Positions 6,252 through 17,312 of a stretch of DNA of 64,000 nt are shown here, piece after piece; positions within the stretch are counted from its first letter, which is position 1; every line of letters starts with the position of its first letter. The position numbers and the translations under genes are program-made. The DNA comes from Leptolyngbya sp. FACHB-321 (GTDB lineage Bacteria; Cyanobacteriota; Cyanobacteriia; Leptolyngbyales; Leptolyngbyaceae), in the NCBI RefSeq assembly GCF_014695975.1, contig NZ_JACJPI010000058.1, forward strand, positions 62,001 to 126,000. The letters are read 5' to 3'. The notes below the pieces were generated by a model. It made no database searches, was not told where the DNA came from, and saw only the letters and a program-made list of their open reading frames with translations.

Positions 6252-6324
6252 AATAACTCGACATCAATTGCGAGAAGTTACGAGAGACGCTCCATCCCAA
6301 TTCAAGAACCCCAAACTCAAGACA

Positions 6325-6747
6325 ATGTTTGATTTTGATGCCACTCTGCCACTGATGGCGGTTCAGTTTTTGGTTCTAGTTGCCCTGCTAAACGTGGTCT
6401 TTTACAAGCCATTAACAAAGGCGATCGAAGACCGTAGTGACTACATCCGCACAAATGAAACCGAAGCGCGTGAGCGGCTGGCAAAGGCTGAACATTTAGC
6501 AACGCAGTACGAACAAGAGTTGGCAACGACTCGTCGGCAATATCAACAGACGATCGCTACGGCACAAGCGGAAGCCCAAGCCCTTGCTGACCAACAAATT
6601 GCCACTGCACAGCAAGAAGCGCAAGCTCAGCGTGAGCGCGTGCAGCGTGAGCTTGATCAACAGAAGCAGGAAGCAATGAGTTCCTTAGAGCAGCAAGTTG
6701 AGTCATTGAGCCACCAGATTTTAGACAAACTTTTAGTCAGTCTTTAG
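6325..6747 (+). CDS. atpF': ATP synthase Fo subunit b'
   Basis: The b' subunit (atpG in cyanobacterial naming) pairs with b as the peripheral stalk in photosynthetic organisms. The 140-residue product starts [20 protein letters not shown], with one membrane helix followed by a long charged coiled coil rich in Glu, Gln, Ala and Arg. I chose ATG at 6325 because MFDFDATLP is the usual start of the family; the frame stays open back to a TTG at 6268, which would add 19 residues. The next gene is the b subunit. Presence of both b and b' is typical of cyanobacteria and plastids. Confidence 0.95.
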
Positions 6748-6834
6748 ACGTTGGTTGTTAATCTTTAAGCACCCTTAAAGTCTAGAGCTTAACAACTGAA
6801 CGCTGATGACTCCAGCCATTTTGGACGTAGCGAT

Positions 6835-7401
6835 ATGGATATTCTCTTAAAGTTGGCGATTGAAGCTAACGTTTTAGGCACCGAAGCGGTTGAAACAGCT
6901 GAAGCAGGTGGCTTTGGTCTCAACTTCGACATTCTTGAAACCAATTTGGTTAACCTGGCGATCGTTGCGGGTGTTTTGATCTACTTTGGGCGCGGCTTTT
7001 TAGGTAAAACCCTGAGCGCTCGTCGAACTGCGATCGAAGACGCCATTAAAGAAGCTGAGCAACGCAAGAAAGACGCAGTGAGTGCCCTAGCACAGCAACA
7101 GCAGAAGCTAGCACAAGCTCAAGGGGAAGCGGAAAAAATTCGAGCAGCAGGACAAGTAGCCGCTGCTACCGCTAAAGCAGAGATTGCTGCCAAAGCTGAA
7201 CTTGACATCCAACGGATGCGTGAAGCAGCGACCCAGGATCTCAACGCTGACCAGGCAAAAGTGATTAATGAGCTACGTCAACGAGTAGCAGCGCTAGCCA
7301 TGCAGCGTGTCGAGTCAGAGCTGCCATCGCGGCTAAATGACTCGGTGCAGCAACAATTAATCGATCGTAGCATTGCCATGCTAGTAGGAGGCGACCAGTG
7401 A
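6835..7401 (+). CDS. atpF: ATP synthase Fo subunit b
   Basis: The 188-residue b subunit is a peripheral stalk component. It has a short N-terminal extension (about 25 residues), a membrane helix around NLVNLAIVAGVLIYFG, and then a long coiled coil with RRTAIEDAIKEAEQRKKDA and many Ala, Glu and Gln residues. Its last four bases overlap the start of the delta gene (GTGA at 7398-7401), so the two are translationally coupled. Confidence 0.97.
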   Translation: MDILLKLAIEANVLGTEAVETAEAGGFGLNFDILETNLVNLAIVAGVLIYFGRGFLGKTLSARRTAIEDAIKEAEQRKKDAVSALAQQQQKLAQAQGEAEKIRAAGQVAAATAKAEIAAKAELDIQRMREAATQDLNADQAKVINELRQRVAALAMQRVESELPSRLNDSVQQQLIDRSIAMLVGGDQ

Positions 7402-7954
7402 GTGATAGCGTCATTACCAGTGAAATTTCTGCCCCCTATGCCCAGGCGCTGATGTCTCTGGCAAAAACTGAGAATTTGAGCGATCGCTTTGGTGAAGATG
7501 CCAGCAGTATCTTGAACCTCCTGAAAGAATCGCCTGATCTCGATCAGTTTTTGGCAAGCCCTGTTGTTAGTCTGGACGCCAAGAAAGCAGTTTTGCAGCA
7601 GGTTTTGGGTGACCAGGTGCATCCCCACATTCGCAACTTTCTGCTGCTGATTGTGGATCATCGTCGTATCGCTTTTTTAAGTGGCATTTTGAAGCAGTAT
7701 CAGGCATTGCTACGCGAACTAAACCAAACGGCGCTGGCTCAAATTGTTTCGACAGTGCCACTTAATGAGGCGCAGCAGCAGACAGTGCGTGAGCGAGTGA
7801 TAGCCCTCACGGGTGCCCAAAACGTTGAGATCGAAACAACGATCGATCCTGACTTAATTGGTGGTGTGATTATCAAAGTTGGCTCTCAGATCATTGATGC
7901 AAGCTTGCGCGGTCAACTCCGACGCATTTCGTTACGCTTAGGCAGCACAACTTA

Positions 7955-7955
<1 letters not shown>
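7398..7955 (+). CDS. atpH: ATP synthase F1 subunit delta
   Basis: Delta (atpD in cyanobacterial naming; the bacterial OSCP equivalent) joins the F1 head to the b/b' stalk. The 185-residue protein has the N-terminal helical bundle (ISAPYAQALMSLAKTE) and the conserved C-terminal stretch IDPDLIGGVIIKVGSQIIDASLRGQLRRI. It starts with GTG, overlapping the b-subunit stop by 4 bp, which suits coupled, near-equal synthesis. Confidence 0.97.
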
Positions 7956-9565
<1,610 letters not shown>

Positions 9566-12037: not shown

Positions 12038-13123
12038 ATGAAACGCCCCTTTACTGTTGCCTTGATTATACCGACGGGCATTGGGGCGACGATCGGTGGT
12101 TATGCAGGCGATGCGTTACCTGTTGCACGGGCGATCGCACAGGTTGCCGATTGCCTTATTACGCATCCTAATGTTCTTAACGGCGCGCAGCTTTATTGGC
12201 AGCTTCCAAATGCACTGTATGTGGAGGGCTATGGACTCGATCAGTTTGCAGCAGGACAGTGGGGCTTGCGTCCCGTTCACCAAAACCGTATCGGGTTAAT
12301 TCTTGATCAAGGGATTGAACCAGAGTTGCGCCTGCGGCACCTTCAGGCTGCTGATGCAGCAAGAGCGACACTAGGATTAGATCTCACTGAATACATTGTT
12401 ACAGATGCGCCTCTAAACGTGAGTCTGCAAACAGCCGCATCGGGTGCAACATGGGGTACGATTCAAAACCCCGCTAGTTTGTTACGTGCAGCAGAGGCAT
12501 TGATCCAAAAAGCAGGCGCAACGGCGATCGCGGTGGTTGCCCGCTTTCCTGATGATTTTGGGGGTGATGCACTCCAACAATACCGCCATGGTCAAGGTGT
12601 TGATCCGATCGCAGGAGCCGAAGCAGTAATCAGCCATTTAGTTGTACGCACGTTTAGTATTCCCTGTGCCCATGCGCCCGCTCTTTTGCCGCTGCCGCTT
12701 GATCCTCAAGTCGCACCACGATCGGCGGCTGAAGAATTAGGCTATACCTTTTTGCCCTGTGTTTTAGTGGGCTTAAGTCGTGCGCCGCAATTTGTGACGC
12801 GATCGCATCCTACCTTCAGTCCTCAAATGGGAGACATTTGGACAGAGCAAGTAGATGCTGTCGTAGTACCTGCAACCGCTTGTGGTGGTAGCGCAGTCAT
12901 GAGCTGGAGCCAATCATCAACGATTGGAACGTCATCGCCCCGCATCATTGCAGTACAGGACAACCAGACTACTATGCAAGTGCCACCCAAAGCCTTAGGC
13001 ATGGACGCAACCTGCGTGCCCTCTTACCTGGAAGCGTTAGGTTTACTGGTGGCTCAACGGGCAGGAATCAGTGCTGCTGCGCTCAAGCCATCCCTGCGAT
13101 CGTTATCCCGTTTTAATGATTGA
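12038..13123 (+). CDS. DUF3326 domain protein
   Basis: A 361-residue protein of the DUF3326 family, found in cyanobacteria and phototrophic eukaryotes, with no known function. The N-terminus VALIIPTGIGATIGGYAGDA is characteristic. Other landmarks are TLGLDLTEYIVTDAPLNV in the middle and the glycine-rich VVPATACGGSAVMSW near residue 280. It is soluble and full length. It follows the 60-residue gene by 64 bp. The conserved glycine-rich N-terminus suggests a nucleotide- or phosphate-binding loop, but that is inference. Confidence 0.85.
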   Translation: MKRPFTVALIIPTGIGATIGGYAGDALPVARAIAQVADCLITHPNVLNGAQLYWQLPNALYVEGYGLDQFAAGQWGLRPVHQNRIGLILDQGIEPELRLRHLQAADAARATLGLDLTEYIVTDAPLNVSLQTAASGATWGTIQNPASLLRAAEALIQKAGATAIAVVARFPDDFGGDALQQYRHGQGVDPIAGAEAVISHLVVRTFSIPCAHAPALLPLPLDPQVAPRSAAEELGYTFLPCVLVGLSRAPQFVTRSHPTFSPQMGDIWTEQVDAVVVPATACGGSAVMSWSQSSTIGTSSPRIIAVQDNQTTMQVPPKALGMDATCVPSYLEALGLLVAQRAGISAAALKPSLRSLSRFND

Positions 13124-15342: not shown

Positions 15343-15939
15343 TTACAACAGAGCTTCATAATCACGCAGCAGGGCAGTAAGGAAAGTGGCAGCGGAAGTG
15401 CCTCTAGGCGGACTCGAAGAACCCAGCTTAACCCAGTAGCCAGCAGCTGTTTGTGGCGATCGCCATAAATCTAGATGATCCACACCAGGGTCAGCATAAA
15501 AACTGTCCTCTCCTGCGCCCAGCAAGGCTGAACTCCAGTGTGTAAACGCATCATGGCTCATACGGTGCATTGGAAAATCGCCTATTAGTGGCACACCCCA
15601 CCCATCGACTGCGATCAATGCCTTCACCACTCCACCCAGACTCCTCCACCCACAAGCCGCACTTACAGCACCTACCACTCCAGCACTGAACCCAATTAAA
15701 ATCAACGGAGTACAAAGTGCTGTATCCAGACTATAAGTGCTTAATTTTTCATGAAGAAAGCGCAAGATGTGCAGCCCTGAATAAGCAGGGTAGCGATCGG
15801 CTGGAAACACTAGCCATGATGCTGGATGTAAGCGTTCCTCGCCAGTTGTTAGCAAGCCCTCAATAAATTGCTGAGTTAACGCGCGCTCGTGGATGCCAGG
15901 GCAAACTACAACCCTTACCCTATGTCTCTTAGCGCTCAT
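15343..15939 (-). CDS. Alpha/beta-hydrolase-like protein
   Basis: A 198-residue protein with the nucleophile-elbow motif ILIGFSAGVVGAVSA around residue 85-99 and an early strand RVRVVVCPGIHE in place of the usual HG oxyanion region. A candidate acid is in LIAVDGWG and a candidate histidine in PGVDHLDLW. It is short for the superfamily, lacking much of a cap domain. The substrate is unknown; similar proteins occur in cyanobacteria without assigned roles. Confidence 0.75.
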   Translation of the reverse strand: MSAKRHRVRVVVCPGIHERALTQQFIEGLLTTGEERLHPASWLVFPADRYPAYSGLHILRFLHEKLSTYSLDTALCTPLILIGFSAGVVGAVSAACGWRSLGGVVKALIAVDGWGVPLIGDFPMHRMSHDAFTHWSSALLGAGEDSFYADPGVDHLDLWRSPQTAAGYWVKLGSSSPPRGTSAATFLTALLRDYEALL

Positions 15940-16133
15940 TACCCATCCCTCATGTGCTCTTAGCCAGCAACTTATATACCAGTTTCATCCTATCCCCCCG
16001 GAGAGGATGTTAGGCTAGTCGTGAGAGGGTTACACTTTGGCGTTATCTGATGCTTAAACAGCTAAAGATGGCAGTACCTGAGTGATTACCACTCAACCAT
16101 AGTTTTAGTCCATTTCATATTGAGGCAGTCTCA

Positions 16134-17312
16134 GTGGTCGCTACTCCTGAAAAACTCCAACCCCTAACCGATGTCTCTGTCCCTCAGGATCGAGTTGCGG
16201 TTTTGCTCATGGGCTATGGCGAAGTTGAAAGCTATGAAGACTTTGCCAACTATAACGAGCAAGCGCTTAATCTCCTAACAGCAAAATTTGCGCCTGTGCC
16301 GACGTGGATTTATCCTCCAATGGCGAAGCTGTTAGCCATGTTTGATTTGCATGAGTGGAGCCATCAGCACGACCACTTTATTTCACCTCATAACGCTATC
16401 TTTGAGCGTCAGCGGGCAGGTGTTGAACAGTATTTGCAGGAACGCTGGGGCGATCGTATCAAAGTCTTCAAGGCGTTTAACTTCTGCGCTCCCTTTCTGC
16501 CAGAGCAAGTGCTAACTGAGATTAAAGCAGAAGGGTTCGATAAGCTGCTGATTTACCCACTGCTAGTTGTCGATTCCATCTTCACAAGCGGTATTGCGGT
16601 CGAGCAGGTCAACAAGGCGCTTACGCAGCTAGCAGACGGTAACGAGCATTGGGTGAAGGGCACTCGCTACATTCCATCGTTCTACAACGAGCCTGCATAC
16701 ATTGATTTGCTGGCAGGCATGGTTGAAGACAAAATCAAAACCGATCTGGCAGTCGCACACCTGCCCTCACAAACAGGGATTGTGTTGATGAACCACGGTT
16801 GCCCTCACAAAGCGAAGGGCTTTACGTCTGGGATTGATGAGAGCCAAGCTTTGTACGATCGCGTCCGTGAAAAGTTGATTTACCGTTATCCCCTGACTTC
16901 AGTGGGCTGGCTCAACCACCAAACGCCATTGATTGAATGGACGCAACCGAACGCCGAGCTAGCAGCCAGCAACTTGATTGATCTAGGCGCAACCGCACTC
17001 GTCTTTATGCCGATCGGTTTCGCCACTGAGAACCACGAAACGCTTCTCGATGTTGATCACATCATTCACACATTGCGGCGCAAGCATCCTGAAGTCACCT
17101 ATGTGCAGATGGAATGCGTGAACGATCGTCCCGAATTCCTCCAGATGGTAGCAGACTGGGCACACCCGCAAATCGAGGCATTGCTGTCAGAGCAAGCCTT
17201 GGCAGTAAATCCCAGCCTTGCCCAGAGCCATGCTCAACATAACCACGATCATGGTCATCATCATGATCATGGTCATGGGCATCAACACGGCAATGGGCAC
17301 CATCATCATTAG
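16134..17312 (+). CDS. Ferrochelatase-like protein with C-terminal polyhistidine tail
   Basis: A 392-residue protein of the chelatase superfamily, starting with GTG at 16134. It differs from canonical cyanobacterial HemH, which begins with a GVLLLNLGGP-type motif and ends in a chlorophyll-binding-like helix; here the start is RVAVLLMGYGE and there is no such helix. The two metal-site motifs are recognisable: IVLMNHGCPHKA matches the HemH His motif, and FATENHETLLDVDH matches the SEHIETL motif. The last 27 residues contain 15 His mixed with Asp, Asn and Gly, a pattern used by Ni, Co and Zn handling proteins. Many databases call such proteins ferrochelatase. Whether it inserts iron, cobalt or nickel is open. 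A strong inverted repeat follows the gene. Confidence 0.8.
   Translation: MVATPEKLQPLTDVSVPQDRVAVLLMGYGEVESYEDFANYNEQALNLLTAKFAPVPTWIYPPMAKLLAMFDLHEWSHQHDHFISPHNAIFERQRAGVEQYLQERWGDRIKVFKAFNFCAPFLPEQVLTEIKAEGFDKLLIYPLLVVDSIFTSGIAVEQVNKALTQLADGNEHWVKGTRYIPSFYNEPAYIDLLAGMVEDKIKTDLAVAHLPSQTGIVLMNHGCPHKAKGFTSGIDESQALYDRVREKLIYRYPLTSVGWLNHQTPLIEWTQPNAELAASNLIDLGATALVFMPIGFATENHETLLDVDHIIHTLRRKHPEVTYVQMECVNDRPEFLQMVADWAHPQIEALLSEQALAVNPSLAQSHAQHNHDHGHHHDHGHGHQHGNGHHHH

Follow-up and report, generated by a model that had tools for sequence, protein, structure and literature searches.

The window analysed here, a stretch of 64,000 nucleotides from Leptolyngbya sp. FACHB-321, contains a gene whose product database models name ferrochelatase, and the question it raises is whether this protein serves haem synthesis or handles another metal. 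The gene (16134 to 17312, forward strand) starts with GTG and encodes a chelatase-fold protein of 392 residues, with its closest named relatives in Tildeniella nuda (94%) and Stenomitos (93%). A sequence-only reading had pointed to 15 histidines among the final 27 residues, and these are indeed found at residues 366–392 (17229 to 17309, forward strand). It had also described the chelatase motifs NHGCP and ENHETL in a core differing from canonical HemH, and both are present on the same strand, at residues 220–224 (16791 to 16805) and 299–304 (17028 to 17045). Its main suggestion was that the label may hide a cobalt or nickel chelatase or a metal chaperone.

Relation to HemH and other chelatases

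The genome to which the window belongs (6.7 Mb, 97% complete) carries two PF00762 genes, and the other one, for which the same reading had advised a search, encodes a canonical HemH of 387 residues with a CAB-like C-terminus. The PF00762 (HemH) model assigns 410 bits to this protein and 131.9 bits to the window chelatase, well over the gathering score of 27, whereas the cut-off of the HemH equivalog model TIGR00109 (124.6 bits) is missed by the window chelatase with 88 bits and passed by the canonical HemH with 418. The window chelatase has no match to Chloroa_b-bind (the CAB domain); the canonical HemH matches it weakly, with 17.8 bits under a cut-off of 22.3. Cyanobacterial genomes commonly have two PF00762 copies, some of the second ones being HemH duplicates. 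Two HemH copies in L281 and L282 (genomes G193 and G282), with open frames of 366 and 340 residues and seemingly without a CAB end, fall inside HemH.

In a maximum-likelihood tree of 54 rows, rooted at the midpoint, with several long HemH end branches and with the HemH of G107 (L283) left out, the 33 window-type rows form a clade at the end of a very long stem; its separation from the 21 HemH rows, among them that of E. coli, is supported at 100/100. The window chelatase therefore lies outside the HemH group, and the difference from canonical HemH that had been proposed is borne out by both the domain scores and the tree. We have little doubt that the window-type proteins form a separate family, distinct from HemH. 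Because a second, canonical hemH exists and the window chelatase lies outside the HemH group, the label hides something else.

Window-type chelatases occur in 93 of 145 cyanobacterial genomes of the class (protein search, E <= 1e-60), with no row of the small-genome family f19 among the matches. A set in which 84,980 prokaryote species are each represented by a single genome contains 445 stretches with a gene for a relative, and the titles of the best 80 of these 445 name cyanobacteria. A survey of 2021 (J Biol Chem, PMC8529089) reports that some cyanobacterial ferrochelatases have a His-rich C-terminus to the exclusion of the CAB domain, and calls the CAB-less set not identified or studied before. 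With their His-rich C-terminus and lack of a CAB domain, its proteins are very likely the same as those of the window type. The survey files them as ferrochelatases, and the parts of it considered here do not mention a second clade beside CAB-HemH, the operator or the hydrolase.

In the alignment, His221 of NHGCP and Glu302 of ENHETL occupy the places of the catalytic histidine and glutamate of HemH, and both are invariant in 39 close relatives with a mean column identity of 75%; the catalytic glutamate of human ferrochelatase we take to be E343. The catalytic histidine of the human enzyme is given as H263 (PMC8529089). The window chelatase has three cysteines, Cys118, Cys223 and Cys328, which are likewise invariant in the 39 relatives. 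Compared with HemH, the clade rows shown have lost the GGGSP loop and carry Asn116 for the arginine of GMRYW; this residue opens the motif NFC (residues 116–118, 16479 to 16487, forward strand), which ends in Cys118. In addition, YPHFS has become LVVDS and SEHIETL has become TENHETL, with Asn300 in the place of its histidine.

These features bear on the view that the protein is a second true iron chelatase, a HemH isozyme which would make haem under special conditions and whose tail would store or deliver iron. The retained catalytic-type residues, the PF00762 score and the classification in the 2021 survey (PMC8529089) speak for it; the changes in GMRYW, GGGSP and YPHFS, the score below the HemH equivalog cut-off and the very long branch to HemH speak against it, and on the whole evidence, including that given below, we regard it as unlikely.

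A structural model was built from the alignment of close relatives (mean pLDDT 72), covering the body of the protein without the tail and the N-terminus. Human ferrochelatase is its best match (VIA Z 27.5, rmsd 3.6, 321 aligned), followed by the CbiX/CbiK/SirB group with Z of about 17–19 (SirB 19.4, CbiK 18.3). By sequence and fold rank together, the window chelatase appears nearer to HemH than to CbiX, CbiK or CfbA. This counts against a cobaltochelatase or sirohydrochlorin chelatase that would replace CbiX or CbiK in cobalamin synthesis. Such a role could be needed, because besides hemH the window genome yielded a single PF01903 gene; it is of the two-domain CbiX/SirB type and neighbours a gene for a cobA-like methyltransferase (cobA named by eye). 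The role would also fit the His-rich regions of long CbiX proteins (PMC5816740), a stray dyad beside cbiM in genome G008 (see below) and the weak pass of the PF01903 (CbiX) cut-off, with 27 against 22 bits. However, this pass is not discriminating since canonical HemH passes too, with 31.9 bits; Trichodesmium has window-type proteins (L053, L076) as well as a reported CbiX with its own MXCXXC and His-rich region (PMC5816740), and the lack of f19 rows among the matches is a further argument against it. We consider the cobalamin role very unlikely.

The histidine tail and the pocket cysteine

A His-rich C-terminus is found in 80 of 80 close relatives from other genomes (the best 80 of 445), with 8 to 24 histidines in the last 45 residues, except for L041, which is cut by the contig end and shows five. 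The residue order within the tail is not conserved, only its composition. The tail is thus no chance run but a feature under selection. Among 40 further loci, all 26 homologues of more than 65% identity have it, one of them being split into two open reading frames, and so do four of the 14 homologues at 45–57% identity, the other 10 being tail-less; in more distant relatives the tail is down to six or seven histidines.

The presence of the tail is associated with Cys223. NHGCP occurs in 108 of the 118 proteins with a readable motif, and 107 of these 108 are tailed, against one of the 10 with another motif (L123). This table comprises 118 of 120 rows, L149 (IHGCP, tailed) and L137 (gene split by a stop) having been left out, and these figures, like those on dyad and regulator and on gene co-occurrence given below, come from genes of shared ancestry and ignore phylogeny; the tail may have been lost in perhaps only about three events. 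That a cysteine beside the catalytic-type histidine accompanies the His tail is a further point against a second iron chelatase. In L137 (4957-6366, genome G296) the chelatase gene consists of two open reading frames in one frame with a stop between them, the tail being on the second.

The tail could also be read as the functional part of a metal buffer, chaperone or sensor, with the chelatase fold serving as a platform for docking that has no turnover, and with Ni(II), Zn(II) or Co(II) bound by the tail, comparable to the metal-binding tails of HypB and SlyD. Conservation of composition alone is what would be expected of such a sponge, and the distant tail-less relative in L126 lacks the catalytic-type histidine (TYGSP). 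On the other hand, this histidine and the glutamate are invariant in the 39 close relatives despite a mean column identity of 75%, and the core persists in 10 homologues that have no tail, so that a buffer or chaperone seems an improbable explanation. A true chelatase is predicted with modest confidence over a buffer.

The homologue in L126 (4909-5922, 45% identity) lies beside a copper-type P-ATPase gene (6318-8825), with a DUF156 regulator just beyond, near 8906-9142. In L124 (4972-6818), L125 (197-2043) and L119 (4910-6929) the gene that follows a tail-less homologue with VHGGP, on its strand, encodes a ZIP-like transporter, which in L124, the one scored, reaches 30.6 bits with PF02535, under the cut-off of 35.1.

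The upstream dyad and its candidate regulator

Upstream of the chelatase gene lies a candidate operator, a 22-bp near-palindromic G-tract dyad (15987 to 16008) with the core ATCCCC-N5-GAGGAT at 15992-16008. It runs into a predicted extended -10 promoter on the forward strand (16008 to 16017), TG-N-TAGGCT-A with the hexamer at 16011-16016. A dyad ATCCCC-N5-GGGGAT followed by TGNTANNCTA recurs upstream of chelatase genes across the class: a score of at least 12 of 16 is reached by 126 of 150 upstream regions (134 distinct) and by none of 150 single-base shuffles, and in an enlarged set 105 distinct dyad sites score at least 13, with TGNTANNCTA conserved among them. We interpret the conserved TGNTANNCT as an extended -10 promoter, and the dyad just upstream of it would be well placed for a repressor to block the polymerase.

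The position of the dyad is nearly exclusive to this gene. When up to one mismatch was allowed, 140 genomes of the class yielded 34 sites, distributed over 33 genomes; 33 of these sites precede a chelatase gene, and the reversed pattern gave none in the same genomes. In the window genome a single site was found, before the chelatase gene; the exact pattern gave no match there because this site is one base off. The dyad is kept, with scores of 13–14, in four of the 10 tail-less homologues (L117, L118, L120 and L121 of the deep clade), from which it follows that tail and regulation are separable. In several f7 genomes (upstream of L129, L131, L133-L136 and L147) the dyad is apparently extended or altered, and some f7 dyads are near-perfect palindromes of the form TATCCTATCC-N4-GGATAGGATA.

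The only stray near-exact dyad in the 140 genomes (L184:5038-5063, G008) lies between a ferritin-like gene and cbiM, a cobalt/nickel transporter gene. Its place before a ferritin-like gene would fit an iron role of the chelatase. As a common dyad target, ferritin was rejected: among 30 genomes examined (of 37 matching) the dyad was present in one, again G008, which is represented by both L184 and L186. Upstream of the chelatase, Fur/Zur-like patterns and an NtcA site were tried as well and were not enriched over shuffles, the former result speaking against iron. A MerR-type activator is less likely, since the six bases before the dyad, at the place of a -35 box with 19-base spacing, hold no conserved hexamer.

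One DUF156 (CsoR/RcnR-family) regulator was found in the window genome, with InrS of Synechocystis as its best solved relative (5fmn, 157 bits; the next at 81). Compared with the InrS ligand set (PMC7055735), the N-terminal histidine and the C-H-C positions are of InrS type in all 31 regulators considered, namely that of the window genome and the best-scoring 30 of the class. The dyad (score at least 12) is present in 64 of 84 chelatase loci of regulator-bearing genomes versus one of seven in regulator-less ones (Fisher 0.002, kinship ignored). This table leaves out three loci from genomes outside the 140, and G325 and G353 count twice. The regulator-less exception with a dyad is G293, a draft in 1150 contigs, and only G002 and G039 are clean regulator-less cases, because the other four dyad-less loci belong to divergent tail-less homologues. 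Of the loci with a regulator, 20 of 84 lack a scored dyad, which in G027 sits further upstream; a chelatase is missing from 15 of the 98 regulator-bearing genomes. No exact-form dyad was found near inrS in 31 loci.

In its sequence layout the dyad resembles CsoR/RcnR-family operators. The CsoR type 2 consensus of Streptomyces is TACCCC-N5-GGGGTA, the TAC/GTA inverted repeat being needed by CsoR of S. lividans (PMC3902906). The window dyad shares with it two G/C tracts, the N5 spacer and the location at a promoter, but its outer bases are ATC/GAT, and since the repeat needed by S. lividans CsoR is absent, the identity of the regulator remains that of a candidate. InrS represses the nickel exporter gene nrsD, and its DNA binding is impaired by Ni(II), in vitro also by copper and zinc (PMC4235346); control of further genes by InrS was suggested in a study of Synechocystis (PMC4182526). 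Taken together, these observations make InrS-type control of the chelatase gene fairly likely. Such control would entail nickel as a likely part, and the conserved switch probably responds to this metal. The binding of zinc and copper by InrS counts against a nickel-specific reading.

Proposed function, partner gene and known systems

Divergent to the chelatase gene, on the reverse strand (15343 to 15939), lies the gene for a predicted small alpha/beta serine hydrolase of 198 residues with the nucleophile motif GFSAG. The window protein has no match in Pfam or NCBIfam, and eight of 41 aligned members match Thioesterase weakly. Its model (mean pLDDT 94) is that of a minimal alpha/beta hydrolase (TesA Z 15.8, B. 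subtilis lipase 14.4), and Ser85 in GFSAG, Asp112 and His155 are invariant. Among the 140 genomes the hydrolase is found in 84 of 90 with the chelatase and in none of 50 without it (E <= 1e-12, kinship ignored), often not adjacent. Of the six chelatase genomes without it, three are 62–79% complete, two have the divergent tail-less form, and the last is G374. Where the hydrolase gene is displaced from the chelatase, the dyad reaches a score of 12 upstream of it in 0 of 20 cases, a control that also led us to reject its membership in the dyad regulon.

Other neighbours (FMN reductase, FtsH, an aldo/keto reductase, an ilvB-like gene and an MFS transporter, names partly by eye) recur in part of the set and look like local synteny. 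A DUF3326 protein (567 bits) is encoded at 12038-13123 on the forward strand, and Rfam gave no match within the window.

The suggestion that the label conceals a cobalt or nickel chelatase or a metal chaperone is partly supported: the protein does not belong to HemH, and a metal other than iron has indirect support from the His tail, the active-site cysteine accompanying it and the CsoR/RcnR-like operator, mostly missing where the regulator is missing. Behind the standard annotation there is probably a metal function of another kind. We tentatively propose, at a little short of an even chance, that the protein is an ancient second chelatase-fold enzyme of class II for Ni(II), regulated by InrS, accompanied by a co-inherited hydrolase and distinct from the haem ferrochelatase of the cell. 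For nickel as the main metal we see the balance as about even, and cobalt or zinc is less likely.

According to this proposal, the gene would have an extended -10 promoter of its own, controlled by the G-tract operator. The nickel sensor InrS is the most likely protein to bind this operator, and the chelatase would accordingly be produced in response to an excess of Ni(II) in the cytosol. The His tail would collect the metal and pass it to a remodelled pocket in which His221, Cys223, Glu302 and the asparagine replacing the arginine of GMRYW would suit a softer divalent ion. The metal may then be inserted into a tetrapyrrole or held, providing a nickel sink or a cofactor, and the serine hydrolase might act in the same pathway, perhaps on a tetrapyrrole ester. 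A full nickel-tetrapyrrole pathway in cyanobacteria, in which a nickel chelatase induced through InrS would act with a dedicated esterase to yield a Ni-chlorin or Ni-porphyrin as sink or cofactor, is a speculation that we hold to be quite improbable.

If the metal is nickel, haem-pathway annotations are off by one gene in the 93 genomes in which this protein is named ferrochelatase, InrS acquires a widespread target in addition to the nickel exporter, and the existence of a nickel chelatase other than that of the F430 pathway, the known case, can be put to a direct test. Chelatase and hydrolase, being closely co-inherited, form a two-gene unit. The complete pathway, if true, would provide a candidate enzyme for the formation of nickel chlorins such as tunichlorin, for which we know of no enzyme of nickel insertion. 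Tunichlorin comes from a tunicate with a cyanobacterial symbiont, the chlorin being credited to the cyanobacterium and the nickel to the tunicate (PMC8074062). Among the open-access papers listed by our searches we came across no account of the separate clade, of the operator or of the hydrolase as its partner, and no further work on these proteins, on a link to InrS or nickel, or on a second cyanobacterial ferrochelatase; PMC4192464 and PMC7689651 mention ferrochelatase and InrS and, in the portions available to us, do not link the two.

Among known systems, CbiX-L, SirB, CbiK and CfbA share with the window chelatase the chelatase superfamily and the weak PF01903 match and, in the case of long CbiX, a His-rich region (PMC5816740). 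The window protein differs from them by its lower fold score, by the absence of the MXCXXC Fe-S motif of CbiX-L, none of its three cysteines lying in such a motif, and by the absence of a CfbA model among its NCBIfam matches up to E 1. It differs from HemH and CpfC by an identity of 16–20% to the solved ones, by its altered GMRYW arginine, GGGSP and YPHFS, by its three clade cysteines, the His tail and the missing CAB domain, and by an operator and a clade of its own, yet it has the same fold over about 320 residues and keeps the catalytic-type histidine and glutamate as well as the tryptophan preceding QP of the substrate face.
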